Positions 1,799 through 37,900 of a DNA stretch of 52,324 nucleotides are shown piece by piece (positions within the stretch are counted from its first letter, which is position 1; each line of letters begins with the position of its first letter). The translations under genes and the position numbers were made by a program. The DNA is from a virus. Below the pieces are notes generated by a model, which did no database searches, had not been told where the DNA came from, and saw nothing but the letters and a program-made list of their open reading frames with translations. Where the stretch lies: positions 1-52,324 of the IMG/VR virus record IMGVR_UViG_3300034200_000513; one strand, written 5' to 3'.

Positions 1799-2980
1799 TT
1801 AAAATATCATTCCAAATAAAATTGCACGTCTTTTACTTACCAATTCGTCATTTCTCGCAGTAGTAATATAGAATACACCTGAATCGCCGGCGCCTGAACT
1901 AGCATGATAAACAATGTTTTTTGTTGCTGCACTACTGGGCGCGGATCCTTGTATAGCTAATTCTAAATGTCCATCCAAGCTCACTTTACTATTTGTTGGG
2001 TCAAGTATGATTGAACCGCTGGTGCTGCTTAAAGTATTAGTAGCTAAAGTTAAATTTCCTGCTATTAATCCTGTTGAATCAATTGTTGCTTTAAGTACGT
2101 TATCGACTTTAAAAGTTAATTTACTTACTGCATCGCCTGCTGTAATTGCTTGCGCACCAAATGTTAAACTAGCACTAATTTGATATGTTCCTGCGCCGCC
2201 GCTAGCTGCGATAAATCCTAGAACAGTAGTTCCACCAGGAATTCCGGCGCCGGCAATGAAATCGCCAACTTTTATGTATCCGGCTGTAACTGATGTCACA
2301 GTTAGTGTAGTACCACTACAACTGGCTACACCTTGAAATCTTACAGTATCAAAACCTTGACCTAATGTATCACCTGCTCCAAATACTTCTGCAACAAATG
2401 AAGCCAACGATGATGCTACATAATCTGACATAGCTTTTGCATTTGGAATTCTATCGTCGTCGATTACAGAAACTCCTAGTGCTGGATTTGAAGGGTCTAC
2501 ATAATTTAAAATCTTTTGTTCGTAGTCACCTGTACCTGTTACTGTTACATAACCTGTACTGCCAGAATTAATTAACCCCAAAACTCCTTGATTAGTATCA
2601 ATACTGTTTGTTTGAATTCCGGTTAAAGTTCCGTTATCTCTTCTAAAAACCCAAGTGCCTGGTACTGTTGTAGCAGTAGTAGGACTATAGTGTGTTTCAC
2701 TTTCGTCCCACAGAATTTGTGCATCTGCTCCTGATCCTCTATCAACTTGAATTCCTGAAGTTCCTAGAGTCACCGTTGATCCAGTTTCTCCGCTGTTAAG
2801 AACAATAATATTATCTTTAACAGTCATAGTTTCTGACTGTACAGTAGTTGTAGTACCTTGTACTGTTAGATTACCTGTTACTAGTACAGTTCCTGTACGA
2901 ACTCCTGTATTAAGAGTTATTGTACCAGAATTTTGTACTACAACTTGGTAATCACCGTTACTGACTCTAAGAACTTTCAT
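1799..2980 (-). CDS. Fibre-like virion protein with beta-helix repeats
   Basis: This 393-residue protein is rich in Gly, Thr, Ser and Val. Residues about 20-75 read VRTGTVLVTGNLTVQGTTTT, then MTVKDNIIVLNSGETGS. The same module (a 'GnLtVnGtttsv' strand, a 'v.Dn.I.Ln' strand and an 'ilWdes' element) is found in the fibre gene at 46651-48507. The C-terminal part is also repetitive (LTLATNTLSSTSGSIILDPT) and ends in a short basic tail (SKRRAILFGMIF). AGGA is placed seven bases before the ATG at 2980. Context between other virion genes supports a fibre or whisker-like appendage. No enzymatic motif is seen. Confidence 0.78.
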   Translation of the reverse strand: MKVLRVSNGDYQVVVQNSGTITLNTGVRTGTVLVTGNLTVQGTTTTVQSETMTVKDNIIVLNSGETGSTVTLGTSGIQVDRGSGADAQILWDESETHYSPTTATTVPGTWVFRRDNGTLTGIQTNSIDTNQGVLGLINSGSTGYVTVTGTGDYEQKILNYVDPSNPALGVSVIDDDRIPNAKAMSDYVASSLASFVAEVFGAGDTLGQGFDTVRFQGVASCSGTTLTVTSVTAGYIKVGDFIAGAGIPGGTTVLGFIAASGGAGTYQISASLTFGAQAITAGDAVSKLTFKVDNVLKATIDSTGLIAGNLTLATNTLSSTSGSIILDPTNSKVSLDGHLELAIQGSAPSSAATKNIVYHASSGAGDSGVFYITTARNDELVSKRRAILFGMIF

Positions 2981-2993
2981 CTATAATCCTAAA

Positions 2994-3428
2994 TTAGATA
3001 GCAACTAACTGAAGTGTAGTTTCAGTTGAATCGTCTGTTACAGACCATGTATATCTAACGTTATTGAAATCTCTAGCAGTTCTATTATAGAGTTTTTTAA
3101 TGTTTACATATTGACCATTTGTTTTTCTTCCTTGGATGGCCATTTCATTAGCTGCTAAAGAGCCTGCTGCTTTGTTAACTAATGTGCAAACACCAACATT
3201 GCCTGTACCTGAGCCAGCAGTAGTACGCTTAGTACCAGTTTTTAGATCATTAACTAAAAATTTACTTCCAGACTTTTGACGAATAATATAACCAGATTCA
3301 GTTTCTGGGTTACTTGCTACTTGAACATTAATTTTAATGTTGAATAGTGAATCACTGTATGGCATTCCTGCTGTGTCGGCAGCATTAGCTAGTCTACCAA
3401 AATTTCTTTTATTAATTGGACGTCCCAT
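2994..3428 (-). CDS. Conserved small virion protein of marine T4-like phages
   Basis: This is a 144-residue protein beginning MGRPINKRNFGRLANA. I chose the ATG at 3428 rather than an upstream in-frame codon at 3476 because a strong AAGGAG sits seven bases before it, and the extra 16 residues (which include MRPHRVDLERQ) would lie in the leader after the late promoter. The N-terminus is basic; the body has NIKINVQV, YIIRQKSGSKFLVNDL and YTWSVTDDSTETTLQLVAI, suggesting a small beta-sandwich. It is the first gene downstream of gp23, behind its own terminator and late promoter, which fits a protein needed in many copies such as a decoration or fibre-base protein. Function is inferred only from position and abundance signals. 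Confidence 0.78.
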   Translation of the reverse strand: MGRPINKRNFGRLANAADTAGMPYSDSLFNIKINVQVASNPETESGYIIRQKSGSKFLVNDLKTGTKRTTAGSGTGNVGVCTLVNKAAGSLAANEMAIQGRKTNGQYVNIKKLYNRTARDFNNVRYTWSVTDDSTETTLQLVAI

Positions 3429-8301: not shown

Positions 8302-10018
8302 CTGGAGGAGCAGCAGGAGCGGCACCGCCTACTGGACTTGCTCCTGCTCCTTCAGGTGCAGCTTCTCCGCCAGGTGGAGGAGGTACTGCTGCATCAGAAG
8401 CTATGCCTAAATCACTGCTTATACCGGCTTGACTTATGCCTGCGCCGCGTAATTCTGCGCCGCTTTCTGAAGCTTGTGTTTCTGCTTTACCATTTTCTTC
8501 TCTCCATAGGCGTTCGTTTTCTGCTATTTCTTCTTCAGACAACCCTAAGAATCTTTTCATAGCAAAACGTTTGCTAATAGTCGGTATTTGAGAAAGTGTT
8601 TGATATGTTGGAGCTCGTGCAGTGTCTAATTCGCTTTGTCTAGTTGCTGCAAAATTTTGTGGAGGATTAAATTTAAGTTCAAACAGACTGTTGTCAATAT
8701 TAAGTCCTCGGTCATTTAGATAAAGTTTAAATTCTTTATCAAAAACTTCTTGCATTAGACTTTGAAGTCTTTCGCAATAGTTGTTGAATCGCAGTTCTTG
8801 AATATATGCAGTACCTACTCTGCCATCATTGTACTGGCTTTGACTATCGTCTGCTCCGGTAGGCAGGTAACTACTAGGAATACGTAATCCTCGAAATAAT
8901 TTATTTGTAAAATATTTTAAATCGTCTATTTCGCCTAAATTTGTTCCGCCGGGCAAAGTTTCTACTTTACTTCCACGACCTTCTGCGGTTTGTGGAAAGA
9001 AGTAATCTTCATTGATTGATAAAGGATTATAGGCTGAGTCAATAACATTAGTACCGCCACCAACAGCAGAAGGAATTCTTCTTTGATGTATTTCATTTTT
9101 CACTCGCTCCACAAAACTCATAGCCAAGTGACTGGGCATGTTTCCTACATCAATGTAGAATATTCTACGCTCAGGGGCACGTTGAATACGATAGATAATA
9201 ATAGCATCTTCTAATAATTCTTTCTGTTTGTAAACTTTAAAAACAGATTCTAACAGACTATTGCCGAACGGATAATTGTTATCCAATCCTTCGCTTAAAC
9301 TTAGATGAATTACGTGTTTTGCATCAACTGCAAGTTCGTTTTCGTTATTTTGAAATCGTGTGCCTGGACTAATTGGATAAGCACTAGCCTGGCCTCTTGC
9401 TGCTGCACCTCCTGCTATATATGCAGTACCTCTGTTATTTGTATTAACAGTGTTAGGATTAATAGTGGTTACAGTTAGCTCTTGAAAATTAGGATTTAAA
9501 TCTCTAATTACATACTGTTCAGGCTTTTTGCCTTCGCTTTCGTTAACAATTATTTTGGTTAGCTTGCCTGGATCGATGTGAAACCATTTTTTAGTTTCAG
9601 GATCACGAACAAATATACTATCGCCATATTTGAATACGTTTCTAACAATTCTGAAAATTCTAGTTTCAAAATTTTGCAGTTTGCACCACTGTTGTAAGTA
9701 TTCGCGTAGTACAGTAACTTCTGAATTAGTGGCTTTGGATCTAAAAAATAGTGTAAATGGTGTATTATTTTGTTTATTAGTCTGACTGCAAAATTCTGCT
9801 AGTATGTCCAATGCGGCATTGACTTCACTGTCCATATCCATGGTATCATATTGTAGATATCGTTCTACTCTATTAGGTGCGCCAGTATATACATCTGGTA
9901 AAAAAGAACTATAATTGGTTCTCGCTGGGCCTGCTCGACCAGCAGAACTACCTACAGGACTGTACACAGCAGGTTGTCCGCCAACATTAACAGGTGTAAA
10001 ATATTTTTTCCAGCTCAT
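8297..10018 (-). CDS. 20: Portal vertex protein
   Basis: gp20 forms the dodecameric head portal for DNA packaging and tail joining. T4-like signatures are RVERYLQYDTMDMDSEVNAA, LDILAEFCSQ, FKYGDSIFVRDPE, NYPFGNSLLESVFKVYKQKE, APERRIFYIDVGNMPSHLA and LPGGTNLGEIDDLKYFTNKL. It has 573 residues against 524 in T4. The extra length is mostly at the C-terminus, which ends in a Pro/Ala/Gly-rich tail. Its ATG overlaps the stop of the tape-measure gene by one base (TAATG), so the two are coupled. The core of the head operon follows it, as in T4. Confidence 0.96.
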   Translation of the reverse strand: MSWKKYFTPVNVGGQPAVYSPVGSSAGRAGPARTNYSSFLPDVYTGAPNRVERYLQYDTMDMDSEVNAALDILAEFCSQTNKQNNTPFTLFFRSKATNSEVTVLREYLQQWCKLQNFETRIFRIVRNVFKYGDSIFVRDPETKKWFHIDPGKLTKIIVNESEGKKPEQYVIRDLNPNFQELTVTTINPNTVNTNNRGTAYIAGGAAARGQASAYPISPGTRFQNNENELAVDAKHVIHLSLSEGLDNNYPFGNSLLESVFKVYKQKELLEDAIIIYRIQRAPERRIFYIDVGNMPSHLAMSFVERVKNEIHQRRIPSAVGGGTNVIDSAYNPLSINEDYFFPQTAEGRGSKVETLPGGTNLGEIDDLKYFTNKLFRGLRIPSSYLPTGADDSQSQYNDGRVGTAYIQELRFNNYCERLQSLMQEVFDKEFKLYLNDRGLNIDNSLFELKFNPPQNFAATRQSELDTARAPTYQTLSQIPTISKRFAMKRFLGLSEEEIAENERLWREENGKAETQASESGAELRGAGISQAGISSDLGIASDAAVPPPPGGEAAPEGAGASPVGGAAPAAPPV

Positions 10019-12405
10019 TATGTTCTCTCGTATACATTACCACTACCACTTGATTTAGTGGCTCTAATTTGCTTACCGCCAATATCAACTTGTACATCAA
10101 CTAGTGTAGTCATTGTAGTATTTAAGCGTTCTAGACGGTCAACGACATCGTTTAGGGATACACTAGGACCTCCTTTTGTTATCTGTTCCATAGCAGATGG
10201 GACCCCTTGTTCTAATGTTTGCTGTGCTTTTGGTATCAAACTAGATACTGAAGAAGAAAATTTATCGCTCATAGGCATAGACAAATTTGAAAGTTTGCTA
10301 CCTAAACTATTGAATGCTTCTGTTTCTTTTGGATTTAAAACTCTTTCGCCTTTATGAATAAATGCTAGCAAATCTTCTGGTTCTGCAGGTTTTCCTGTTT
10401 TACCAAATGTTCCAAATTCTCTTGTCCCTAGCCCAGTGACACCTTTGAGAATATTAAGTTGATCAACACCTATAGTTTGAACACCGGTTATGCTTTGGAT
10501 CTGATTCATGATGCCGCCGCCTTCTTCGGATTGTGTTCTTTGTTCAATCCTGTCATCTCTTCGGCGTTGCCATTCAGGTTTGTTCATTCTTTCACGCTCT
10601 TTTTGAACATCTGCTTCTTTAGCTTTTAATGATTCTATTACAATTTTGTCTAGTGCTTGCGGCCCTTTCGCAACCATTTCTTTAATTACTTGTTCTTGGC
10701 TAATGCCTCTTTCTTTAGCTTCCTTCATAATAGTTTCGTTTAGTTTAGCGTTTTTATCTAAGCTAGTTATAAATGCTATTAACTCAGGACTTTTGCCTGT
10801 CAATCCGGTTCCTTGTTCTTTACTTAATTTTAATCCTTCTTCGACTGCTTTCATTTTATCTTTTAACTTAGGCGAAGTATCTGCTATAGTGCCTATTAAT
10901 TTGCTAAACGCTGCATCAGTTGCTTTTTGTGTTTCTTCTCGAATATTGTTACTTTTACCTTTAGCAGCATCTAAATTTTGATAGAATTCATTTAATGCTC
11001 TTCCTAAAGGACTAGCTGGTGCCACTTGTTGCAAGATACCTTGTCTAATTCCGGCACTAGCATCTTTAGTTGCATTTTCAATTCCTGTTAATGCTTTAGT
11101 TGCTCCATCGCTCTTTTCTTGTTCTATTTTTGCACCTTGTCTTCTTAGCTCTAATGCCTTAGACAATCCTTCTTCTGTTTGAAGATTTAATTTATTAGCT
11201 TTAGCAATTTCTTGAAGTTGAGTACTAAAACCTCGAGTCTGAGTCTGCATATCAACAAAATCTTTTTCTCCTTGACGTGCTAACTGTCTATTTGTATTAG
11301 ATTGCTGTTGTAAAGCAGCAAGTGCAGCAGCTCTTTCAGTTAATTCTCTTGCCCTGACGTCATCACCTTTTTTAGCTGCTTCAGCAGCTTCATATAAAGC
11401 TTTTTGTGCAGCAGGACCAATAGCATTAAATTTGCCAATCATATCCTCTGTAGGTCTGCCCATGGCAAAAATTTGCTCGGATAACATTTGGAAATCAGTG
11501 CCACCTTGCTGTGCTGCTGTCTGCATGGCATTGAATCCTTGTTGCACATTCTTGCCGCCTCTCGCAATTTCATCTGCTAGTGCAGCTTGTACTTGGCCAT
11601 TTTCCTGCTGCTTTCTCATTAAATCTTCTTGTTCTTTACGACTATTACCGGTAAGTTTAGCCATTAAATCCATTTCTTTACCAAGCTTTTCAACTTGTTC
11701 AATGGCTACTTTTCTCGAATCAGCTTCATTTAATCCTTGTCGTCTTTGCTGGGTTATTGTGGTTGATAATAAACTGTTTAAATCTTCAGTAGTAAATCCT
11801 AGACCAGTCATTCGATCAACTAATCCTGAATCGTCAAACATTGCTTGGCTAGCTTTAGTAAATTCTTTAGCTCCTTGAGCAACTCCTCCTGGTAATGTAG
11901 CAAATGCTTTGTTATTAGTTTGCATTAATTCTGTAAATTCACGCATACCTAATCTAGTACCAGCAGCGGCCATACCTAAATCTACTAGACTGTTATTAAA
12001 GTTCATACCGCCTTTGCTTAACAATCTAAAAGCATCTAAGTTTTCTTCGTAAAATTGTGAACCTTTGGCTAGTAAACCTGAAAATTTACCTATAGTGTCG
12101 CCGAATAGAAACCCTGCACCTCTTGCGTTATCCCCTACAATATTAAAGGCTTCGCTGACACGCATACCTCCTTTGCTCAAATGAGCAAAGGTGTCAGTAG
12201 TAGCTCCTATGCCAAATTTAGCCAGGCCTGCGAACTGATCTTTAACTCCAGTTAGAACTTGATCGAACGTCGATCCGCCGCCTCCTCCGGTACCTCCTCC
12301 ACTTCCCCCAGCACCCCCTCCGCCGAAACCACTGCTGCTTCGAGAATGTTGTTTAAGAGCTTCGGCAAAGGCCTCTTTAAGATCTTGTTTTGTTAAATCG
12401 GGCAT
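10018..12405 (-). CDS. Tail tape-measure-like protein (gp29 role)
   Basis: This 795-residue protein begins with a hydrophilic Gly-rich linker (residues 18-45). It then has hydrophobic helices around 55-150 (GAGFLFGDTIGKFSGLLAKG), long Gln/Lys/Glu-rich helical stretches (240-620) and a C-terminal LLAFIHKGERVLNPKETEAF. That last motif is the 'ihkGErVl' element common near the end of phage tape-measure proteins. Tape-measure proteins set tail length and are ejected with DNA. T4 gp29 has 590 residues. Supporting context is the divergent gp26 gene with a frameshifted extension next to it, recalling the tail-assembly-chaperone/tape-measure pairing. AGGA precedes the ATG at 12405. A baseplate-hub or ejected-protein role is the main alternative. 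Confidence 0.7.
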   Translation of the reverse strand: MPDLTKQDLKEAFAEALKQHSRSSSGFGGGGAGGSGGGTGGGGGSTFDQVLTGVKDQFAGLAKFGIGATTDTFAHLSKGGMRVSEAFNIVGDNARGAGFLFGDTIGKFSGLLAKGSQFYEENLDAFRLLSKGGMNFNNSLVDLGMAAAGTRLGMREFTELMQTNNKAFATLPGGVAQGAKEFTKASQAMFDDSGLVDRMTGLGFTTEDLNSLLSTTITQQRRQGLNEADSRKVAIEQVEKLGKEMDLMAKLTGNSRKEQEDLMRKQQENGQVQAALADEIARGGKNVQQGFNAMQTAAQQGGTDFQMLSEQIFAMGRPTEDMIGKFNAIGPAAQKALYEAAEAAKKGDDVRARELTERAAALAALQQQSNTNRQLARQGEKDFVDMQTQTRGFSTQLQEIAKANKLNLQTEEGLSKALELRRQGAKIEQEKSDGATKALTGIENATKDASAGIRQGILQQVAPASPLGRALNEFYQNLDAAKGKSNNIREETQKATDAAFSKLIGTIADTSPKLKDKMKAVEEGLKLSKEQGTGLTGKSPELIAFITSLDKNAKLNETIMKEAKERGISQEQVIKEMVAKGPQALDKIVIESLKAKEADVQKERERMNKPEWQRRRDDRIEQRTQSEEGGGIMNQIQSITGVQTIGVDQLNILKGVTGLGTREFGTFGKTGKPAEPEDLLAFIHKGERVLNPKETEAFNSLGSKLSNLSMPMSDKFSSSVSSLIPKAQQTLEQGVPSAMEQITKGGPSVSLNDVVDRLERLNTTMTTLVDVQVDIGGKQIRATKSSGSGNVYERT

Positions 12406-12464: not shown

Positions 12465-13292
12465 ATGACCAATCCGCTACAAAAATATTTTAGACAACCT
12501 AAAGTTTACATAACTTTGCCCAGCAAAGGCATGTATTATCCCGAAGGCGCACTAACTGGCGATCCTAATAATTTTCCAATTTTAGCTATGACTGGTATGG
12601 ATGAAATTATTATGAAAACTCCAGATGCACTTTTAAACGGCGAAGCCACAGTTAAAGTAATCGAAAGTTGTTGTCCTTATATTAAGGATGCATGGAGCAT
12701 TCCTAATATAGATATAGATGCTATATTAGTAGGAATTCGTATTGCTACATATGGGGATATACTAACTTTAGACAATATTTGTCCGTCTTGTAGCACAGAA
12801 AATTCCTATGAAGTAGATTTAAAAACTATTACAGACCATTTAAGTCAGTGTCAATTTAGTCATAGCATGGCTATTGATCCTATTTCAATTAATTTTAGAC
12901 CGCTAACTTATCGAGAATTCACTGAAGAAAATTTAAAAAGTTTTTATCTTAGACGGCAAGTATTTCAATCATCAGAAATAGACGATCAAGAAGCTCAACA
13001 AAAAGTTCTAGAAGATGCTTATGCAAAGTTAGCTGAAATGAAAGCTGATCTAGTAATTAAAAGAATAGACAGCGTTCAAACTATTGAAAATACAGTAGAG
13101 GATGCTAATTTTATTTCAGAATGGATTCAAAATTCTGATAGAGAAATTTTTGATTTAATCACTAAATTTTTAGATAACAGTCAAGAGACTTGGAATATTC
13201 CAAAATTTCAAGCAAAATGTACTAACTGCGATCACGTGGATCAAATATCAATTAACTTGGATCAATCAAGTTTTTTCGTAGCAGCCTCGTAA
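12465..13292 (+). CDS. 26: Baseplate hub assembly protein, gp26-type (zero-frame product)
   Basis: This 275-residue protein begins QKYFRQPKVYITLPSKGMYY, the 'lPSkG.yYp' opening of the T4 baseplate protein family that includes gp26. Two CxxC pairs, Cys106/Cys109 (CPSC) and Cys252/Cys255 (CTNC), could form a split zinc site. FRPLTYREFTEENLKSFYLR and LVIKRIDSVQTIENT are helical. gp26 acts in baseplate hub assembly. AAGG stands five bases before the ATG, behind a late promoter. T UUU UUC at 13271-13277, four codons before the stop, allows a -1 shift into the next frame, so a second, longer product is likely. T4 gp26 is shorter (208). Confidence 0.8.
   Translation: MTNPLQKYFRQPKVYITLPSKGMYYPEGALTGDPNNFPILAMTGMDEIIMKTPDALLNGEATVKVIESCCPYIKDAWSIPNIDIDAILVGIRIATYGDILTLDNICPSCSTENSYEVDLKTITDHLSQCQFSHSMAIDPISINFRPLTYREFTEENLKSFYLRRQVFQSSEIDDQEAQQKVLEDAYAKLAEMKADLVIKRIDSVQTIENTVEDANFISEWIQNSDREIFDLITKFLDNSQETWNIPKFQAKCTNCDHVDQISINLDQSSFFVAAS
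13271..13277 (+). promoter_or_regulatory. Candidate -1 ribosomal frameshift site T TTT TTC
   Basis: Read in the gp26 frame the bases fall as (AG)T TTT TTC, a canonical X XXY YYZ heptamer. A -1 shift avoids the stop at 13290-13292 and enters a frame open for 77 codons. There is a weak GGA ten bases upstream; downstream I see only a four-pair stem (TGTC/GACA), so stimulatory elements are not obvious. Confidence 0.6.
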
Positions 13293-13510
13293 CACTGTCT
13301 AATTCTGACATCGAAACAAGAATTCAATCGCTTGAATTATATGCCAAGCAGATTAAAGAAGATATATTTAGAATTAGTTGGTATATGCGAGGCGGTGTAA
13401 GCAGCTATGATCTATTTCAAGTGTATAGTTCTGAAGATAGAACTATTATGAATAAAATAATCGAAGAAAATATTGAAACTACAAAGAAAGCACAGATGCC
13501 GTTGCTTTAA
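13277..13510 (+). CDS. gp51-like tail-assembly extension, reached by -1 frameshift
   Basis: This frame encodes 77 residues: a coiled N-terminus (SNSDIETRIQSLELYAKQIK) followed by ISWYMRGGVSSYDLF and a C-terminal helix ending KKAQMPLL. Short proteins with this 'WymRGg...IeeNie.tkK...LL' pattern sit beside gp26 in other T4-like phages and are likely hub or tail assembly factors. There is no ATG, GTG or TTG in this frame before the Met inside WYMRGG. So it is best explained as the tail of a gp26 fusion of 348 residues made by the slip at 13271-13277. CTG at 13295 is a weaker possible start. Its stop overlaps the stop of the convergent gene at 13507. Confidence 0.7.
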   Translation, partial: RSSLVTLSNSDIETRIQSLELYAKQIKEDIFRISWYMRGGVSSYDLFQVYSSEDRTIMNKIIEENIETTKKAQMPLL

Positions 13511-14493
13511 AGCCCTTGAGCTTGCAATGCTGCTTTCAATTCAGGATCAGTAGTATACTGACTATATCTTCCTTGCTCTCCGCTAGGAGCAGGTTGATCT
13601 GATTTTCGTCTAGGATCTGCAGGGGTTTGTTTTCCAGGAGCAGGTTGGCCTCCTTGGCCTTGATTAGGTTTAGCATCTGCTGGTTTACCTTTGCCCATAG
13701 CTTCATCTATAGTTTTAGAAATGCCGTCTTTTAATTTATTCCAATACTTGGCCGCTACACTTCCAGGATCATCTAAGCTCATACCTGCTACTTTATAAGC
13801 TAGTACATTTCCTATAGTTTCTCTAACATCTGGACGATTCAGATACTGTTGCACTGCAATTAAAACAACTTCACTAGCCAGAATTCCTGCTATAGCTGCT
13901 CCGCCTGCGAATCCGCCAGTGCCTATAGTGGCTCCTAAACCTAAAGCACGAAACAACCATTTTAATCCTACAATGCTTCTTACTATAGAAGTAATTAATC
14001 CACTGGCTGTGATCTGTACAGCTAACACACTGATCAGATTGCCCTGAGTATCAAAGTAATCTTGATCCTTGGGTAGATTATTTGTTTCATAGTATTCATC
14101 TAATCCAGATATATTTGTCCAGTAATCGATGACCATTTCGCTATAACCAAAAATCTTTAATATCTTAAGAAATCCGCCTATACGTTTTGCTGCACTCTTC
14201 TCGCCCAATGCACGCCATGACGGGTCATTGCGATCTTTTAGATATTTTAGTAATTTCCTAACACTCTTTTTACCAACAATTTTAGTTGTTTGAGCAGTTG
14301 CTTGTCCAGGTGTCTTAGGAACTTTTTTGAATATTGCTGGACGCTTAATCATATCGTCCATAGCAGCTTTTTGCGAATTATAACTGCCTACTCTACGACC
14401 ATCAGGCATTTGAACACTGAACTTTCCAGTGCTAGAATCTTTAACAACTTTAGGTCTAGTGTCAGCTTCCGCGATTATTTCAAATATATTCAT
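13507..14493 (-). CDS. Hydrophobic virion-associated protein, unknown function
   Basis: This 328-residue protein begins MNIFEIIAEAD, an opening seen in several phage internal structural proteins. Residues about 12-45 form a small domain (TGKFSVQMPDGRRVGSYNSQ). Residues about 75-95 are basic, and 155-225 contain two or three long hydrophobic Gly/Ala/Ile-rich segments (LISVLAVQITASGLITSIVR; GGFAGGAAIAGILASEVVLI). The C-terminal 90 residues are Pro/Gln/Lys-rich and disordered. This could be a membrane-active protein injected with DNA, a fibre-base protein or a holin-like factor; I cannot decide. A late promoter precedes it, so it is probably a late virion product. It is convergent with the gp26 extension. 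Confidence 0.72.
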   Translation of the reverse strand: MNIFEIIAEADTRPKVVKDSSTGKFSVQMPDGRRVGSYNSQKAAMDDMIKRPAIFKKVPKTPGQATAQTTKIVGKKSVRKLLKYLKDRNDPSWRALGEKSAAKRIGGFLKILKIFGYSEMVIDYWTNISGLDEYYETNNLPKDQDYFDTQGNLISVLAVQITASGLITSIVRSIVGLKWLFRALGLGATIGTGGFAGGAAIAGILASEVVLIAVQQYLNRPDVRETIGNVLAYKVAGMSLDDPGSVAAKYWNKLKDGISKTIDEAMGKGKPADAKPNQGQGGQPAPGKQTPADPRRKSDQPAPSGEQGRYSQYTTDPELKAALQAQGL

Positions 14494-14950: not shown

Positions 14951-15388
14951 TTAACCGTTTAATTGTTTGCCTTTGATGTGAGAGCCATGGACACGAACAC
15001 TGATCTGACCATTATAGTAGCTGTCAGATTCTAGTACTCGCCGTGTGAATTGTTCTCTTGCCTCTATGTAACTGCACTCTGCTTTGCTTTTGCAGTAGAA
15101 CAGTATCTCTCTGTGAAATTTGTCTGTGCCTAATTGTGCAACATCTTTGTTAAGTTCGTCGTTGCTGCCGTAGTATGTTTGCCAGTCCGAGTCTATTTTT
15201 GATTTAATACGTTTCTTTTTCTTTGTGCCGTTTTTTAGTTTTACTATTTTATATGTGGTTTTTGAAAATTTTGCCAGTTTTTTGCCTATATACATTCGTC
15301 CGTTAACAGTATTGGTTATACAGTATACAAATCCAATACAATCTTCAGGAAGTTCCGTTATTAGTTGACTCTGGTGGTACCACGACAT
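14951..15388 (-). CDS. GIY-YIG nuclease, Seg/homing-endonuclease-like
   Basis: This 145-residue protein has the two halves of the GIY-YIG signature: GFVYCITN (about residues 18-25) and GRMYIGKKL (about 30-38). A basic loop (KLKNGTKKKKRIKSK), DWQTYYGSNDELNKDV and FYCKSKAECSYIEAREQF follow; the conserved Glu lies in the last motif. Catalytic residues look intact. T4 carries Seg nucleases of this family as mobile genes, and a similar protein is common in marine T4-like phages. I start at the ATG at 15388; a TTG one codon upstream fits the AAGG spacing slightly better. The start overlaps the preceding gene by about 44 bases. It could be a free-standing homing nuclease or a fixed repair nuclease. 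Confidence 0.8.
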   Translation of the reverse strand: MSWYHQSQLITELPEDCIGFVYCITNTVNGRMYIGKKLAKFSKTTYKIVKLKNGTKKKKRIKSKIDSDWQTYYGSNDELNKDVAQLGTDKFHREILFYCKSKAECSYIEAREQFTRRVLESDSYYNGQISVRVHGSHIKGKQLNG

Positions 15389-15644
15389 CAACTTGTTTAG
15401 CCTTTTTTAATTCTGCCTTGCGTCGATTTGATTCAAAGTATTTTGGCGAACTGTAACTTGGTTTAGTTGCTCTATATGCCTGTACTTCTGCCCTACGTGT
15501 TCTTGCTAAAATTCTAATTTCTGCTAAAATGTGACGAAGCCTTATGCCAGATCGATGTGTACGACTATGCATCCAATCTTGATTTTCCTCAAAATATTTG
15601 CGGAAAAGTTGCATTAGTGCTTCGTGTGTTTGTTCTTCATCCAT
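15345..15644 (-). CDS. Small basic protein between gp46 and the nuclease
   Basis: This 99-residue protein is helical and basic. It has the text MDEEQTHEALMQLFRKYFEE and RLRHILAEIRILARTRRAEV, then a Lys/Arg-rich tail (SNRRKAELKKAKQVDV). The ATG overlaps the gp46 stop by one base (TAATG), so expression is coupled to gp46. Similar short proteins follow gp46 in other marine T4-like phages, without known function. The basic composition would allow nucleic-acid binding, but nothing in it proves this. Confidence 0.72.
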   Translation of the reverse strand: MDEEQTHEALMQLFRKYFEENQDWMHSRTHRSGIRLRHILAEIRILARTRRAEVQAYRATKPSYSSPKYFESNRRKAELKKAKQVDVVVPPESTNNGTS

Positions 15645-28400: not shown

Positions 28401-28930
28401 TACCTCAAAGTTCAGATAGTTTATATAATTTATTATCGCCTGAGTTGAATAAGATTAAAACAATAAGTGATGAAATCATTTATCATCCTGTAAAATATAA
28501 AGTGTTGTTTGGAGAAAAAGCAACAACAGATGTTCAAGCAACTTTTAAAGTTGTAAAAAATCCAGATTTAGTTATTACTGATAATGATGCAAAAGCATCT
28601 GTATTAAATTCTATTAACGAATTTTTTGCTCTTGAAAACTGGGAGTTCGGTGACAACTTCTATTTCTCAGAATTATCAACTTATGTTATGAGAAGATTAA
28701 GTCCTAATATTGTAAATTTTATTATTGTTCCTAAAAAGGACTCGAGTAGTTTTGGTGCATTATATGAAATAAGATCAGAAAAAGATCAAATCTTTATAAG
28801 TGGCGCAACTGTAAATGACATAGAAATAATTTCTACAATTACTGCTAATAAACTTAAAGCATCAGGGGCTATATCTGCAAGTTCAACAGTAGCAGGCCAA
28901 CAAATGATTACCAGTGCGGAGAATAGTTAA
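25457..28930 (+). CDS. 6: Baseplate wedge protein gp6-type, enlarged
   Basis: gp6 dimers form the inner ring of the baseplate. The N-terminus is the conserved part: WKRIYQTFQNADFQSYDFEN, RRVMINYIRENYPEDFNDYI, ESSEFLALIDLIAFTGQSIS and RTDLNARDNFLELAERRESV, then LRLARLLGYNSKR. The C-terminal end has TKRYDENFRQWLTG with PQSSDSLYNLLSPELN and YFSELSTYVMRRLSPNIVNF. At 1157 residues it is far longer than T4 gp6 (660); the added material is mainly between residues about 480 and 900. GGGA precedes the ATG. The gene ends with a one-base overlap (TAATG) on the giant gene, so the two are translated together. Confidence 0.9.
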   Translation: MSATDRQNRLLVAEDWKRIYQTFQNADFQSYDFENLRRVMINYIRENYPEDFNDYIESSEFLALIDLIAFTGQSISFRTDLNARDNFLELAERRESVLRLARLLGYNSKRNICASGLLKFTTISTTETILDSNGRNLSGQVIVWNDLANPDWYDQFIRVLNGALPFSAQFGNPVDKKTVYSIPSEQYRLQSANSDVPVYTFTKAVDGRNMVFEIVSTSFRDADEIYEEPPAQGNRLAFIYRNDGKGNASPNTGFFLHFRQGILNQGTFTIDQPGTNETVDIDAVNINNSDVWLYRLDQNGLESEYWKKVPSLEGNNIIYNSLSKSIRNIYGDITRAGDRVSLVFSDGTFGTLPLGTFRAYYRVSNALSYTINPRDIRNVNLEIPYFSNVGRLETLTITLNLQSAVNNSSETETNDNIKSRAPAVYYTQNRMITAEDYNISPLSVNQEVVKVKAVNRSSSGISRYFDLVDPTGKYSKTNLFADDGIVYREEFTESFKFNYVTRTDIEGIIYNQITDLLNRRSLRDFYYSKFFKIVILSLNVAWYSKSSDTNQSTGYIGDNELAFTYKVGSFTNTLLRYITAGALVEFRAPDGYYFDRNNNNALVQGNPVTPNSTTSIWSKIVKVAGDGTGNSTGELSDGSGPIILNDVIPSNAILYQLIPTWVTYLDQSTISTMIDLVFSDKPFGLRYDIDSFSWKIVFEVDLNIVDNFSLGQQGDNSNQQLDSSWLILFSTDTEYYTVKSRQLRYIFESDKQVRFYFDASDKIYDTRSNTVVKDKIKVLSINTDPNSVGLTSDSSGLIPYTFDKEWEILEEFRGIDGYVDTKKIQITFNDVDDDGVVDNPQIFDEIVAPNVTPSSRYIILERYELAQGQEDYRWVENNGKVIILNSENGFNSSQYNDGQYFYFIATDVVKKFNKSQNLLIISLDYKAYVGRAGIKFQYIHNADFESRIDPGVSNIVDIYILTKRYDENFRQWLTGVISQEPLPQSSDSLYNLLSPELNKIKTISDEIIYHPVKYKVLFGEKATTDVQATFKVVKNPDLVITDNDAKASVLNSINEFFALENWEFGDNFYFSELSTYVMRRLSPNIVNFIIVPKKDSSSFGALYEIRSEKDQIFISGATVNDIEIISTITANKLKASGAISASSTVAGQQMITSAENS

Positions 28931-31900
28931 TGTCAAATATGGATCAAGAAGAACCTGGATTACCAATTAATAATTCTGGACAACGATCTTCTGCTGATTT
29001 ATTACCAAAATATTTTAGAACAGCAGGTAATAGAAAGTTTTTACAATCTACTTTAGATCAGTTAATACAGCCAGGATCTGTTAAAAAACTTAACGGATTT
29101 ATTGGCCGTAAAAATGCCAAAGCTGTTAAATCAGATGATATTTTTATTAATGCTAGTGATTCTATAAGACAAAATTATCAGTTAGAACCAGCCGCAGTAA
29201 TACAGGATGATTTTAACAATATAAATTTTTTCAAAGATTATATTGATTATATAAATCAGATTAAAATCTTAGGCGGGGAAGTTTCTAATCACGAAAAATT
29301 AAATCAGCAAGAAACTTATAGCTGGAATCCATTTATAGATTGGGATAAGTTCGTAAACTTTCAAAATTATTACTGGTTACCTTATGGCCCAGATAGTATT
29401 AAAGTTGCAGGACAACAAGAAGAAATAGTCAGTACTTATAGTGTAGTTCTTGTTGATGAAGGTGACAATTATGCCTTTTTGTTTAGTCCAGACGGACTAT
29501 TAAGAAATCCTACTTTAAGATTATATAGAGGGCAAACTTATAATTTTCAAGTAAATGCACCAAACAATCCGTTTAGTATAAAAACTTCAAGAATTCAAGG
29601 AAGCACTAATAGGTATAATAACGGAGTTACAAATAATGCTACTTCTAACGGAGTTATTACATTCACAGTTCCTGTTAATGCTCCAGATGTGTTGTTCTAT
29701 GTAAGTGAAAACGACGTTAATGCCGGCGGTGTTTTTCAAGTTTTAGATGTCGAAGAGAATACTTTTTTAGATCTGGATAAAGACATCTTAGGTAAAAAAA
29801 CATATACTATGATTAATGGTATAAGCATGTCTAATGGCATGAAACTAAAATTTATAGGAAGAGTTACTCCTGAAATTTATGCAAATGGCTATTGGTATGT
29901 CGAAGGTGTAGGAACAGAAATTAAATTAATTCCTGAATCCGAATTAGAAATAATTAGCTCATATTCAGATTCAAAAGAATTATTGTTTGATGATATTGGA
30001 TTCGATAACGAGCCGTTCAGTTCAGCAAGCTCTTTTGCCGGCAAAAAAGATTATATTACTATAAGCAGAGGGTCAGCAGATAGAAATGCATGGTCTAGAT
30101 ACAATCGATGGTTTCATAAAGATATAATTGAATTTGCTGCACAATCAGAAAATCAAATACCAGTATTTGATCAATCTCTGCGAGCTAATAGACCAATTAT
30201 TGAATTTAAAAATAATATTAAACTTTTTAATTTTGGTCATAAAGCAAAAACTACCATTGATTTAATAGATAATTTTACTAAAGACGTTTTTTCAACTATT
30301 GAAGGCAGTCTAGGTTATAATGTAGACGGTGTCGATTTAGCCAACGGTATGCGAGTGTTGTTCACTGCTGACCCAGATAGATTAGTTAAAGATAAGATTT
30401 TTAAAGTAAATTTTATAAATGTAGTAGTTCCAGGTAGACAATTTACTTTCAATGCAAGCACACAGGTCGATGTAGACAACAATATTATTAGTGTAAGTAC
30501 TCCTCATAACCTATCTTCAAGCGATCAAGTTGTTTATTTGAATAATGGAAATGACAGTATTACTGGATTAGTAAACAGAAAAATTTACTACGTTTATGTT
30601 ATTGATACTTTACGTTTTCAGTTATTTAATGATAGATTATTAACAGTGCCTGTAGATATTTTTGCGACAGGTAGCGAAATTCATAAGTTTGAAGTTTATA
30701 ATAAATTACGAAGACAAATCAATTTAGTTGAAGAGCCAGACACTGATCCAATTTTTAACGAAACAATTTTGATCAAATCTGGCATAGCCAACGGCGGCTT
30801 TATGTATTGGTACGATGGCACTAATTGGAAATACGCTCAGCAAAAAACTAGTATAGGACAGCCTCCGTTATTTGATTTGTTCGATGAAAACGAAGTTAGT
30901 TATTCAGATACATCTGTTTATGATAGCAGCACTTTTCAAGGTAATAAAGTGTTTAGCTATAAAATTGGAACAGGCCCAGTTGATTCTAACTTAAATTTTC
31001 CGTTAACTTATAAAAATATCAACAATGTCGGAGATATCGTATTTGAGTTTAATTTGTTAAATGAATCATTCAATTACAAAGTCGAAACACAAGTCAAATC
31101 AAAAAATACAGATGTAGCTTATCTTAGACAGATAGAAGACCTGTCTACCTATTCTTATGCTAATGGTTGGACTAAGACGTTAGTTACAAACATTCAGCCT
31201 ATAGTTAGAATTTTTAAAAATTCAGGATTAGTAAACGACTTTCCAATAGATGTATATGATGACCCTAATAACTTAAATGATCTTGAAGTAAGAGTGTATA
31301 TTGACGGTATCCGCTTAAACAAAGATAAATTTTCCATTCAATCTAATGTTGTAAGAAAGTTTGTTCGATTAACTACAGATGTTAGTATAACAAATGTTGT
31401 CACTTTAAAGTGTTTTTCATCTCAAACGAAAAATGATAAAGGACATTATGATGTTCCTTTAAATTTACAAAACAATCCTTTAAACGATAATGTTAATGAA
31501 TTTACTTTAGGTGAAGTAATTGATCATGTAGGATCTATTGTCGAAAATTTAAATCAATTCTCAGGAGAGTATCCAGGAGATAGTAATCTAAGAGATTTAG
31601 GAAATGTTTCAGGTTACGGTACAAGATTTTTACAACACTCAGGTCCTTTAAATTTAGCACTGTATCATCTTGGTCAAAAGAACTTTAATATTTTTAAAGC
31701 TTTAGAAAAAGCTAGAGACGATTACGGTAAATTTAAAAGAACTTTCTTAGTAGCAGCGTCTAATACAGGAATAGAAACAGAAGCAAGACTTCATGTTGAT
31801 TATGTATTAGAAAAAATGAGTAAAGATCAGGCAAGTAACAAGCCATACTACCTTTCAGATATGTTTGCTTATACTGTAGCTAACAGATTAGAATATGTGA

Positions 31901-34900
31901 TCGAAGATGCAAGATTAAAAATTTATCCGATGTCAAATAATTTTAATCTGAATTCTTTATCAAATAACGCGGTATATTTGTACATCAACGGAGAGCAATT
32001 AGTACATGGTAGAGATTATGTTTTTGGTGATGATGTTTTCATTACTATCATTAGAGATCTTTATGAAAATGATTTATTAGAAATAGTCGAATATGAAAGT
32101 ACTGACGGATCTTTTTGTCCTGCAACGCCTACTAAATTAGGATTATATCCAAAATTTGAACCTAAGAAGTTTATCGATGATTCCTATCTAGAACCAAAAG
32201 AAGTTATACAAGGACATGACGGTAGTATTACTTTAGCATACGGAGATTATCGTGATGACATGTTATTAGAATTAGAAAAGAGAATTTTTAATAATATTAA
32301 ATCATCCTACGATACTAGTATTTTTAACGTATATGAATTTATTCCTGGACACAGTAGAGATACAGTTTATTCTAAGGAAGAATTTGACACAGTTTTAAGT
32401 AGATTTTTCTATCAGTGGACATTATTAATAAATGAAGATTACACTCAGCAAACATATTGGGATAGATTAAATCCGTTTACTTTTAATTATAGGGGAAATT
32501 TTACTCCTGATGGAAGGGATATTCCAGCATTTTGGAGAGGAGTATATCAGTGGTTGTTAGATACAGATAGACCACACACTCGCCCCTGGGAATGTCTAGG
32601 GTTTTCAATAGAACCTTCTTGGTGGACAGAAATATATGGACCAGCACCTTATACATCTGATAACAGAGTGTTATGGGATGATATACAGCAAGGAATTATC
32701 AGAGAACCAGGTAAGCCAATTAGAATTAATAGTTTATTTGCAAAATCTGTTTTACAATACGGAACTCCAGTAGACGACCAAGGTAACTTATTAGATCCCG
32801 TTAATGCTAACTTTGCGCAAGGTCCTCTGAAACCAACACCTGAAGGATATTATGTATTTGGAGATCAAGGGCCTGTTGAAGCAGCTTGGAGAAAATCCAG
32901 TTTTTATCCTTTTAGTTTAATTCAGGCATTATTATTATTGCAACCTAACAAAGTTCTAGCATCATGTTACGACATATCAAGAACTAAACGTAATTTTAAT
33001 AATCAATTAATTTATTCTGAAACAGGATTAAGAATAAGATTAAAAGATTTAGTGCTTCCTAGTACGATTTCTCAAAGCAACAGAATATATGCTGCTGGGC
33101 TAGTCAATTACATAGTTGACTTTATTAGTAGTGACTTGTTATCTTTAGTAGAGAATTACAAAAGCGATTTACAACGATTAACAAATAAAATTGGTTCTAA
33201 GTTAGGATCTTTTACCAGTAAAACTAAATTAAAATTATTATTAGATAGTAAATCTCCAACTAGTACAGGCGGCGTGTTTGTCCCAGAAGAAAATTATAAT
33301 ATTTTTCTTAACACATCTAGTCCAATTAAAAAAGTTGTGTACAGCGGAGTCATAGTTACAAAATATCCAGACGGTTATGAAATTAGAGGTTATGATTTAG
33401 ACAATCCTTTTTTTACATATTATCCTTATAGAAAAACTGGATCTACTATTAAAGTAGGTGGTATAAGTGAAAGTTTTGCTGACTGGGCTGAAAATAAAAC
33501 ATACGTGGCAGGAAAAATAGTTTTATATAACGGAGTGTATTATAGAGTAAAAACAACTCATGAAACTACTGACACATTTGATAGTCAGTTGTATGCTAAA
33601 TTACCTCGACTTCCAGAAATAGGTGGAGTCGAGATCTTACTAAGAGATTTATGGGATTACTCAACTCCTCTTACATTGTCATACGGAACTAAATTACAAA
33701 CAATTCAAGATGTAGCAGATTTTATTCAAGGGTACGGAGAGTATCTAGAACAATTGGGATTTGTTTTTGAAGAGTTTAATAATGTTTTACAAACAATAAC
33801 TAATTGGAAAACTTCTTTACAAGAATTTGCGTTTTGGACTACACAGAATTGGAAGGAAGGATCAGTATTAGCATTAAGTCCAGCTGCTCAAACATTGACT
33901 TTTAAATCAGATCTTGAAGTTGTTAACGATATTAAAGATCCGTTTTATGGCTATAAAATTTATAGAGTTGATGGCAAGTTGTTAGATTCTTCAAATTTAC
34001 AAGTGTATAGAAATAAAAACGAATTCTATTTAGATGTAAAAGATTCAGCTCAGGGAATATATGGAGCAGTTCTGTATACAATACAAAAAGAACATGCTCT
34101 TATAATAGATAATTCGACATTGTTTAATGATGTAATTTATGATCTAGCTCCAGGATATCGCCAAGAAAGAATTAAAGTTTTAGGTTATGTGGCTTCAGAA
34201 TGGTTTGGAGGATTTGACATTCCAGGTTTTATCTACGATGAAGCAAGAATTAATGATTGGCAAATTTGGACAGATTATAAATTAGGCGATATTGTAAAAT
34301 TCAAAGAGTTTTATTATAGCGCCAGGAAATTTATTTTAGGATCAGAAGAATTTAATTTTGAAGATTGGTATAGGTTAGATGAAAAACCTGAAAGTCAGTT
34401 ATTGTCTAACTGGGATTATAAAGCAGACCAATTCAGAGATTTTTATGATTTAGATACTGATAATTTTGACGCAGAACAACAAAGATTAGCGCAACATTTA
34501 ATTGGATATCAAAATAGACAATATCTTGAAAACATTATTAAAGACGATGTTAGTCAATATAAATTTTATCAAGGAATGATTGTTGAAAAGGGTAGTCAAA
34601 ATGTACTTAATAAGTTGTTTGATACATTAAGTGCAGATGATCAGGAAAGTTTAGAGTTTAACGAGGAATGGGCACTGAGAGTAGGAGAATTTGGTGCGTC
34701 AAGTGCCTTCGAAGAGATTGAGTTTAAATTAGACGAAAATTTATTTAGACTAACTCCTCAGCCGTTTGAATTAACTAATAACATTAATCCATCTATAGTA
34801 GATTATGTTATAAGACAGAAATCTACGGATGTTTATATTAAGCCAGTTGGGTATAATAACAATCCATGGCCTATTAGCGATGTAAAACAGTTTTTAAGAT

Positions 34901-37900
34901 CAGCAGGGTTCGTAAGATATAATGATGTTAAACTTGCTATAGATACCTTAGATGAAATACTAACGCAAGATATAGTAGATTTTATTGAGGGCGATTACAT
35001 CTGGTGTGCATTCGATACAGTTAAAAATAATTACTGGAACGTATACAGATTAACAAATGCAAATATAAATGTTGAGCGTATTCAATTTTCCTCATCAGAA
35101 TTTACAGTAGTATGCGAAAGAATTCCAAATATCCAAGTAGGTCAATATATTGGAATAGATCAAAATGAAAAAGTTAACGGATTTTATAAAGTTAAAAGTA
35201 TTCAAGGAAGATCATTTACTGTTGATAAGGATTTAACCGGCATCGATTTAGAAACTGAAGATAGCAGTGCTTTAGTAATATATAAATTCACAACTAGTAA
35301 GATAGAAGATATTAATTTTGCTAATGAATATTTGCCTCCTATTATTAAAACGGGAGAATTAATTTGGGCTAATAATGTCGGTCAAGGGCTGCGGGGAGTA
35401 TACGAAAATAATAAAGTTTACAACAGATTATCTTTTGAAACTCCGGATCCAGAACTAAATCTTAAGTTCGGACTAAAAGTTTCTTCAATCAAAGACGGAT
35501 CGTTGTGCGCAGTAACAACAGCAAACAATCAAGTCACAATTTTTAGCAAAGCAGTAAATGATGCTAAGTGGACACAAACGTTTGTTATCGACCCTCCAAA
35601 ATATATTTTTCCAGATGACATCGATGGCGGCGCCGCATTTAGAGCAGCACAAGGATTCGGATACGAAACAGCATTTACTCCAGACGGAGAATGGCTGGCT
35701 ATCGCAGCACCACTAGCTAGTCGAGTTCGTTCTGGATGGGAAGGCGACTTTACCGAAGGGCAATCGTACGATTTTGGAGATGCTGTAAGAGTAAGAAGCA
35801 CTCATTGGTATGCAAAACGTAATATATTAGGAGACAGTGCTGTTAACTTTAAAGACGATGCTCCAGGGCCAGCTTTCGGGTCAAGGAATTACGATGAGTT
35901 CAGATTTAGACAAGACTGGACTCCTGCATATCTAATTAACACTGATGCTACTAAATCTCCTAGTGCCTTAACAGAGCAAGGATATGTCGCTTTATATAAG
36001 AGAGTAGGACAAGGAGAATTTACACTCGTTCATAGTTTTGTAAGCCCAGAGCCAACAAATAATGAACGTTTTGGTAGTAAAATCTCTTTCGCGAAACAAG
36101 GTAATGATTATGTTCTAGCTATTAGCAGTCCAGGATATAGAAACCGCGGTAGGGTTTACATGTATCGATATGGAGAAACAGAAACTGATAGTACTGTAAG
36201 TTTTTGGAAAATGGATTATAATAGATTCTATGTAGGGGCATTTAGTTCATTCAATCAATATTATCCAGGAGATATAGTATTAAATCCTACTAACTATCAG
36301 TTGTATAGATGTTTAGCCTTCCAAGATCCGACTCCAATAGAAACGAATCCTAGTGCGTGGCAAATTATAACATCATCTACATCAATTCTAGGATTCTTTC
36401 CGCAAATAGTAGATGATGATATTGAAATCGACAATAATGTTACATTTGATTCTAGCTATAAATTGCCTCCGCCATTGAGAAATGATGCAGTAGAAATATT
36501 ATTTCCAGGAGATGAATTTGGGTACGATGTAAGATTAAGTGCAGATGGCGGCGACACTCTTGTAATTTCTGCACCAGCTGCCGATGAATTTAATTACGGA
36601 AATTTTAAAGGAAAATTTAAAAAGACAATCATTTATAGCAAAGGTGATGTAGTTTATCACAGAGGCGGGTTCTGGAGATACGCAGTAGATTCGGATACTA
36701 CACCTAACGAAGATGAATTTGTTGAAAGTGAGTGGGAAATTCTAAATGTGACCTATGAAGATTCTTCATACGGGTATCAAGGCGAATTTAAATTAGATGG
36801 CAGGTATTATCCAGGCGATGTTGTATATGTTAAAAATAATGCAACTGGCAAAGCGACTCTATATCAGAGCATAGGCAATTTTATCGGTGACGGCAGTTCA
36901 GGAACAGACTTAGATAAATCACACGAGTGGAGAAAACTATTTCCTAGAACAACAAATACAGGAAAAGTATTTGTTTATAAATTTGATGGGTCTGCGTATT
37001 CGTTGTCTCAGACTTTAGGAGCCGATCAAGCGTTAGATATTAATACAGAAGAAAGATTCGGAGAGTCCGTAGCTGTTAGTGATAATTCTGATGTAATAGC
37101 AGTTGGTAGTGTACTTACAGATAAAATTACAGACGATCAAGGAAAAGTTGTTATTTTTAAACAACAAGCCGATGTTTATTATAAACAACAAGATTTATAT
37201 AGTCAACGAGCCGAGCCAAGAGAAAAGTTTGGCAGTTATGTAGATTTTATGAATAATGGTGAAACATTAGTAGTATTCTCAGCTAATGGCGACATTGAAA
37301 ATATTACAACATTTGATAAAGCTAACACTACTTTCGACAATGCATTTTTACGAATAGTTGATCTTCAAATTGATACTGGAAGAATTGATATCTATGATCG
37401 ATATGATGTTAATTATGTGTATGGAGAAAGTTTAGCAACTCCATATTTAGAAGAGGATCTGCAAGTCAACGACCTATCAGACAAATATGGTTATAGTATT
37501 GCCGTTTCAAATAATAATATTTTAGTTTCAGCCCCATTAGAAGACGGTATAGATACTAATGTTGGAAAAGTTTATAGTTATAATAAATCTACAGGAAAGT
37601 TATCTTGGTCTCAAAAATATAAAGAAAGTAAAACTCCAGATGCTACTAAGATTAAAAAATCTTATCTTTATAATCGAAAAACAAATGCATTAGTATCTTA
37701 TTTAGATGTAGTAGATACTATTAGAGGAAAAATTCCAGGCCCTGCTGATCAAGAAATAAAGTTTAAAACTTACTATGATCCTGCAACGTACTCGGTGGCA
37801 TCTGAAAATTTAAACGTTAACGATGGAGCTAAGTGGGATGAAAAACATGTAGGTATGTTATGGTGGGATTTAAGTAGAGCAAAATTTATAGAAAACAGTG

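Follow-up and report, generated by a model that had tools for sequence, protein, structure and literature searches.

Lambda-like phages keep the G and GT frames between the genes for the tail tube and the tape measure protein. The lambda gpG/gpGT pair and the wider TAC-N/TAC-NC class are said to have been described by Xu and colleagues in 2004. Tail assembly chaperones of T4-like phages are, according to its title, the subject of the study by Vladimirov, Gautam and Davidson (2022, Virology 566:9-15), and from homology the pair meant there would be gp26/gp51. Of two later papers, PRFect (PMC10885494) cites that study for some T4-like phages having a short gene and a long fused gene with no frameshift, and the Adele paper (PMC12846349) attributes to it the poly-T frameshift signals found in the TAC-N genes of T4-like phages. 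The review by Leiman et al. 2010 (PMC3004832) lists both gp26 and gp51 in a table of hub assembly chaperones, gives gp51 as absent from the final particle and cites genetic studies that put gp26 in the hub. The TAC locus of Pseudomonas phage Adele and of Vandenendeviridae and Andersonviridae, as described in PMC12846349, is alike in that a -1 frameshift at a run of T is conserved, that the extension is listed as a hypothetical gene of its own, and that the case is argued from a -1 frame open in every compared genome. However, its motif is GTTTTT and it belongs to another phage family, whereas the motif found here is T TTT TTC.

We analysed a gp26-like gene in a stretch of 52,324 nucleotides of IMG/VR virus record IMGVR_UViG_3300034200_000513, which is called the window in its entirety. 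An earlier sequence-only reading of this DNA had proposed a -1 frameshift of the G/GT kind joining gp26 to a gp51-like tail. This is the reading that we favour, with a probability of about 0.9: a conserved heptamer and purifying selection in the -1 frame suggest that a programmed -1 frameshift lets one gene make both the gp26-like and the gp51-like tail assembly chaperones. The majority of ribosomes would read 12465-13292 and produce a short gp26-like protein of 275 aa, and a minority would shift by -1 on T TTT TTC and continue through 13277-13510, yielding a 348-residue fusion with a helical gp51-like tail; both the slip itself and its rate are inferred. By analogy with lambda gpG/gpGT, both forms would act as chaperones, the short one coating the tape measure protein and the C-tail of the long one recruiting tail tube subunits. 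The likeness to lambda is one of arrangement, a short/long pair with a slip site towards the 3' end of the short ORF, and the window's family is set apart by two invariant CxxC pairs and by the T TTT TTC site.

The sequence-only reading knew of no description of the arrangement at this T4-like locus. Much of the frameshift finding is in fact anticipated, since T4-like chaperones and poly-T sites in TAC-N genes are credited to Vladimirov 2022; as to the jumbo T4-like phages, our literature search found no report of a frameshift at this gene in the parts of the sources that were available. A frameshift would explain why the records compared here treat the small ORF as a hypothetical protein of its own, shorten it or overlook it, and it supplies a candidate gp51 for those T4-like phages in which just a single gp26-like gene is annotated at that place.

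Anatomy of the gp26-like gene and its -1 frame

The features of the locus are as follows.

10018-12405, minus strand: divergent ORF of 795 aa, candidate tape measure gene by position (most of the jumbo-phage loci compared have a large divergent ORF there)
12465-13292, plus strand: gp26-like ORF of 275 aa, proposed short form TAC-N (PF12322, phrog_150, AlphaFold, Foldseek)
12465-13277 then 13277-13510, plus strand: proposed long product of 348 aa (271 shared and 77 further residues)
13271-13277, plus strand: in-phase slippery heptamer T TTT TTC, shared by 80/80 IMG/VR loci (the 80 top-scoring of at least 592)
13277-13510, plus strand: -1-frame extension of 77 codons and stop, proposed gp51-like C-tail TAC-C (conservation, dN/dS, model)
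13284-13331, plus strand: site equivalent to the 10-bp stem-loop of relatives, not formed in the window (4/10 pairs)
13507-14493, minus strand: convergent ORF of 328 aa, overlapping the 3'-terminal four bases of the extension, with no family match below E 0.1

The zero-frame codons at the heptamer were AGT TTT TTC, giving the phase X XXY YYZ, and four sense codons (GTA GCA GCC TCG) followed before the TAA of the gp26-like ORF. The -1 frame was open from 13256 to a stop ending at 13510. Its first ATG, the Met of WYMRGG, was found at 13385 with no GTG or TTG upstream of it, a CTG was present at 13295, and the extension ran for 36 codons without a start codon. Translation gave a fusion of 348 residues with the predicted junction peptide ...SSFFRSSLVTL.... 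The sequence-only reading was thus borne out in its account of the letters, having placed the heptamer in the correct phase four codons before the gp26 stop, described a -1 frame open without ATG, GTG or TTG before the WYMRGG Met, and deduced from it a 77-residue extension with no normal start and a 348-residue fusion.

The gp26-like protein matched PF12322 (T4_baseplate) with 61.1 bits against a cut-off of 24.5, and phrog_150 (baseplate hub) at E 2.9e-19. Its short form was modelled by AlphaFold with a pLDDT of 88.9, and the best Foldseek match of that model in BFVD was a T4-like baseplate hub assembly protein (E 4.8e-21). Foldseek against the PDB gave no match at E up to 0.001, an absence that decides neither way, and a sequence search of solved structures gave seven weak matches (E of at least 0.045) named heat shock protein 90 or TRAPPC3. 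The extension alone was modelled as four helices, all-helical, with a pLDDT of 87.8.

In the window, having an open -1 frame is nothing special: one of at least 50 codons beyond the stop was found in 11/29 ORFs, in several through the overlapping next gene. TTTTTTC itself occurred 28 times when both strands were counted. Among the 113 classic heptamers lying in phase in the 29 window ORFs, just the one at 13271-13277 gave an extension of more than 10 codons beyond the ORF stop.

Conservation of the heptamer and selection on the extension

An IMG/VR scan with the window protein returned 16 loci, 15 of which had the heptamer and a -1 extension, the sixteenth (L016) having its extension in the +1 frame. 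A profile scan of IMG/VR then covered the 80 top-scoring of at least 592 loci, which are nearer relatives and no random sample, and TTTTTTC was in phase in all 80. The -1 extension was complete in 76 of these (72 of them distinct) and cut by contig ends in four (L053, L062, L068, L113). Having proposed an alignment of the junction in related phages, the sequence-only reading is supported here, the heptamer being kept in phase in 80/80 of these best-scoring loci (80 of at least 592) while the preceding residue varies.

Eleven jumbo-phage loci all had an in-phase T-run heptamer and a -1 extension, with TTTTTTC in 10 and TTTTTTT in XacN1. Nine further phage loci comprised three with TTTTTTC and a -1 extension (Vibrio 2.275, RaK2 and the 595-kb LR756511) and six with a +1 extension. 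Thus, in 20 loci from a phage collection, the extension lay in the -1 frame in 14, from jumbo or large phages, and in the +1 frame in 6, and T TTT TTC was present in 13/14 of the former (Atu_ph07, Phosso, PA5oct, BF, 121Q, GAP32, Kaldavass, CBB, XaC1, XbC2, Vibrio 2.275, RaK2 and LR756511), the fourteenth being XacN1 with T TTT TTT. Among six further T4-like phages, T TTT TTC was found in P-SSM7, phiWae14, V09 and Moby, and T TTT TTG in RL2RES. No gp26 is annotated in the 85000-134000 stretch of S-PM2. The gp26 gene of the Salmonella phage GG32 (Ackermannviridae, L134) has a -1 extension at 2932-3117 matching phrog_9633, without a canonical heptamer; its junction reads GAG ATT TTC ATT TAA.

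We assembled 99 sequences for comparison, namely the window, the 80 profile-scan loci, the 11 jumbo-phage loci and L037, L038, L009, L010, L012, L013 and L014, leaving out L001-L008, L011 and L015 (window-like set), L016 (+1) and L034 (much longer overlap). At 70% identity they fell into 73 clusters, and at 50% into 25. Extensions were complete in 71 of the 73 clusters and measured 70-79 codons (77 in 47 clusters, 76 in 13).

All 73 clusters had T TTT TTY (TTC in 72, TTT in 1). The residue before the FF dipeptide varied among clusters (N, S, D, H, G, A, Y, R) and FF was invariant in both family alignments, so that codon choice becomes the test. Elsewhere in these proteins there were 23 FF dipeptides, encoded by TTTTTT (15), TTCTTT (6) or TTCTTC (2) and never by TTTTTC. 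Since the C of the heptamer and the G after it may be held by an Arg codon (CGN) of the -1 frame, the clean evidence is the T-TTT part only; in PA5oct, the junction reads FFQ where the window has FFR. Taking the 25 clusters at 50% identity as lineages, ignoring kinship and multiplying 0.60 x 0.76 per lineage, we estimated a chance probability of about 3e-9. Given its conservation among the relatives, the heptamer is not explained by chance.

We then compared substitutions in 22 hand-picked related pairs, using each extension from its seventh codon onwards. Read in the -1 frame, the extension had a pN lower than pS in 22/22 pairs, and dN/dS was 0.03-0.25 in the 18 pairs with unsaturated synonymous sites. 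The same DNA read in the other two frames gave dN/dS of about 0.7-6 where defined. Judged by these substitution patterns, purifying selection acts on the extension as read in the -1 frame, and the extension encodes a conserved protein domain.

In a further step, elements that might stimulate slippage were sought on both sides of the heptamer. A Shine-Dalgarno-like motif upstream was not enriched (3/73 clusters vs 7.8 expected). Downstream, the 50-base stretches starting 6 nt past the heptamer had a median fold z of -2.58, with z < -2 in 40/72, compared with medians of -0.32 to 0.43 for control stretches at seven offsets (-300 to -60, +60 to +180). These values were obtained from dinucleotide shuffles, and that of the window from mononucleotide shuffles. 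A 10-bp stem, with its 5' arm after 6 spacer bases, was counted in the 47 of 73 clusters that have a complete 77-codon extension, the window included. In these gap-free sequences it paired in 77.4% of cells, vs 17-54% when slid by 1-3 columns, and at least 8 of the 10 positions were paired in 29/47. Stem cells changed on both sides numbered 56, vs 23.0 in shuffles, with 0/500 shuffles as high. The numbers of stem pairs changed on both sides (8 vs 6.4; 71/500) and of further pair types (22 vs 19.8; 78/500) were ordinary, and part of the pairing may stem from -1-frame coding in both arms. In the window, the stem-loop was looked for and not found, with 4/10 pairs and a fold z of -0.87; thus, it belongs to part of the clade and is absent from the window. 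Covarying stems of the type GCCTAATTAG...CTAATTAGGC occur at the equivalents of 13284-13331, for example in L065, L079 and L084.

Relation to gp26 and gp51 of T4, gene neighbours and rival explanations

Both T4 gp26 and T4 gp51 matched PF12322 (8.8e-64 and 3.9e-52), far above its cut-off, and are thus paralogues. In gp51 the family match covered residues 1-201 and was followed by about 48 extra residues, and this tail was matched by phrog_634 (baseplate hub assembly catalyst) at 2.2e-11. The same family matched the -1 extensions of P-SSM7 (1.7e-29), V09 (5.9e-21), RL2RES (4.9e-15) and phiWae14 (1e-14), and weakly that of GG32 (0.0027); the Moby extension had no phrog_634 match. These profile matches show that the T4 gp51 tail is homologous to the -1 extensions of several T4-like phages. 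In P-SSM7 (L130), the annotated gp51 at 3274-3369 comprises just 31 codons from an internal ATG, fewer than the full -1 extension to which phrog_634 matched.

The window's own extension and those of its 15 alignment mates had no phrog_634 match at E up to 1, and in four whole fusions scanned against PHROGs the phrog_150 match stopped short of the gp51 part. Using hhalign with a gp51 tail set made without L127, we obtained a direct match of window-type extensions to the T4 gp51 tail of 0.8-0.9% (E 0.06; 10/100 column shuffles as high). Direct comparisons of the window type with the short class (3.5%) and of the +1 class with the gp51 tail (1.0%) were weak as well. Step by step, the window type matched the +1 class at 91% (E 1.1e-6; 0/100 shuffles), the +1 class matched the short class at 94%, and the short class matched the gp51 tail at 93% (0/100 shuffles); against the short class merged with the gp51 tail, the window type reached 9.9%, which 0/100 shuffles equalled. 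The gp51-like nature ascribed earlier to the extension therefore stands on the strong chain through the +1 and short classes and not on the direct profile match, and these stepwise matches suggest that the window's own extension corresponds to the gp51 tail. The locus and T4 gp26/gp51 share a homologous PF12322 core and the division into a short form and a long form with a C-tail. They differ in that T4 has two divergent genes, 26 and 51, with no heptamer or other frameshift site, whereas the window phage has one gene with the heptamer. The two T4 genes may have arisen by duplication.

The neighbours of the gp26-like gene in the window are the 795-aa divergent ORF and the 328-aa convergent ORF. 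A large divergent ORF, often labelled 'virion structural protein', lies beside the gp26-like gene in 9/11 jumbo-phage loci, and in RaK2 the annotation compares the ORF in that place with a tape measure protein. The 795-aa ORF had no family match below E 0.1, and its BLASTP matches were weak (Phosso neighbour 0.001, RaK2 neighbour 0.02, T4 gp29 0.033, PA5oct neighbour 0.51). In SP-15 and immuto the order is tail tube, gp26, second frame and annotated tape measure, and in Mel-JY01 and BRock the gp26-like gene lies between the tail tube gene and a large ORF of another label. The adjacency to a tape-measure gene put forward earlier thus holds in SP-15 and immuto; in the window it depends on an ORF that has no family match and that may be a tape measure gene by its position. 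Elsewhere in the window, the first 1357 residues of a 4975-aa ORF (28930-43857) matched PHROGs of virion structural proteins and also the PHROG 'baseplate wedge tail fiber protein connector'. At 14951-15391 (minus strand), a SegE-family GIY-YIG protein (PF19835, E 5.8e-34) with a listed TTG start adjoins AAA/SMC-type and metallophosphatase genes resembling gp46 and gp47.

The second frame might instead encode a small protein of its own, translated by coupled initiation or reinitiation at CTG 13295 or ATG 13385, at the gp26 stop or close to it, with the heptamer being incidental. An ORF is annotated from the gp26 stop in Phosso, BF, 121Q, Kaldavass, XbC2, RL2RES, V09 and Moby, and a start codon lies within 8 codons past the junction in 28/73 clusters and before the junction in 2/73, so that separate initiation is possible in those clusters. 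We nevertheless regard this explanation as improbable. The window offers no start for 36 codons, 29/73 clusters go 25 codons or more without one, and the -1 frame of PA5oct lacks ATG, GTG and TTG entirely. Moreover, selection spans the extension, T4 gp51 has its tail fused to a gp26-like body, and the heptamer is fixed in phase regardless of a nearby start codon. Relatives with a normal ATG and no conserved heptamer had been named beforehand as evidence that would count against a frameshift; the heptamer proved conserved, which favours the frameshift, and the start codons near the junction in the 28 clusters count on the other side. An error of sequencing or assembly in a homopolymer, splitting one fused ORF, deserves hardly any credence. 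The junction is indeed a run of six T, and such runs are error-prone, but the same run with a stop 1-11 codons on was found in 73/73 clusters from separate records (seven T in XacN1), the zero-frame codon choice is fixed, and a related group overlaps in the +1 frame with a different motif.

A further explanation accepts the frameshift and takes its products to be structural parts of the baseplate hub, not tape measure chaperones. We consider it unlikely, if less so than the other two. The family names read 'baseplate hub', the GenBank label of the CBB homologue CBB_250 is 'structural protein', and the genetics cited in the available part of Leiman et al. 2010 (PMC3004832) locates gp26 in the hub; yet that same part calls gp26 and gp51 hub assembly chaperones and leaves gp51 out of the final particle. 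The title of Vladimirov 2022, with its tail assembly chaperones of T4-like phages, and the gene order in SP-15 and immuto, with the tail tube on one side and the tape measure on the other, also speak against structural hub parts. So does the mass-spectrometry list of the CBB virion, which in the part available passes from CBB_247 to CBB_251 and skips CBB_250, with numbering that is unsafe because the text of that paper gives the name CBB_250 to an 894-aa protein. We thus retain the frameshifted chaperone pair as the preferred reading.

A related group with the extension in the +1 frame

Seven homologues had their extension in the +1 frame (L016, LR756508, Mel-JY01, immuto, GXN1, SP-15 and BRock). 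A scan with four of the seven covered the best 80 of at least 600 loci, again nearer relatives and no random sample; in these, the +1 frame was open for at least 35 codons past the stop in 78/80 (best 80 of at least 600), contig ends cutting the other 2. All 80 loci had a common motif, as TTT TTT TGG in 75, TTC TTT TGG in 3 and TTT CTT TGG in 2, and from TGG to the stop there were two or three codons, the first being CCT, TCT or ACT. An invariant (T/C)TT TGG NCT marks the 3' ends of the gp26-like ORFs of L136-L215, L016, L031 and L032.

From this conservation, the group probably shifts +1 at YTT TGG. The P-site tRNA would slip +1 on TTT T or CTT T, with the Trp codon helping. Slippage by -2 was considered for this group and is ruled out by the TTC TTT TGG and TTT CTT TGG variants. 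The nearest likeness is the bacterial prfB-type +1 frameshift. Common to both is a P-site TTT or CTT followed by T with a +1 slip, whereas the A site holds a stop codon in prfB and the Trp codon TGG in the +1 group; this is not the window's mechanism. Our literature queries, which were aimed at neither subject, found no report of the +1 group or of the stem-loop in the parts of the sources available.

On balance, we lean towards the notion that in the T4-like superfamily a recoded chaperone gene has persisted through very deep divergence while the direction of its recoding changed, with -1 at T TTT TTC, +1 at YTT TGG and two paralogues in T4. If true, the ratio of the two forms would be the selected trait and not the frameshift mechanism. 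Moreover, a family seemingly recoded in two directions, and in T4 in neither, makes the reason for having two forms testable.

The YTT TGG motif was present in L016, Mel-JY01 and immuto and absent from LR756508, GXN1, SP-15 and BRock, which would thus need another shift site. Among these four (L030, L033, L035 and L036), the GXN1 sequence reads CGT CCC CGA at that place, and their shift sites may differ.
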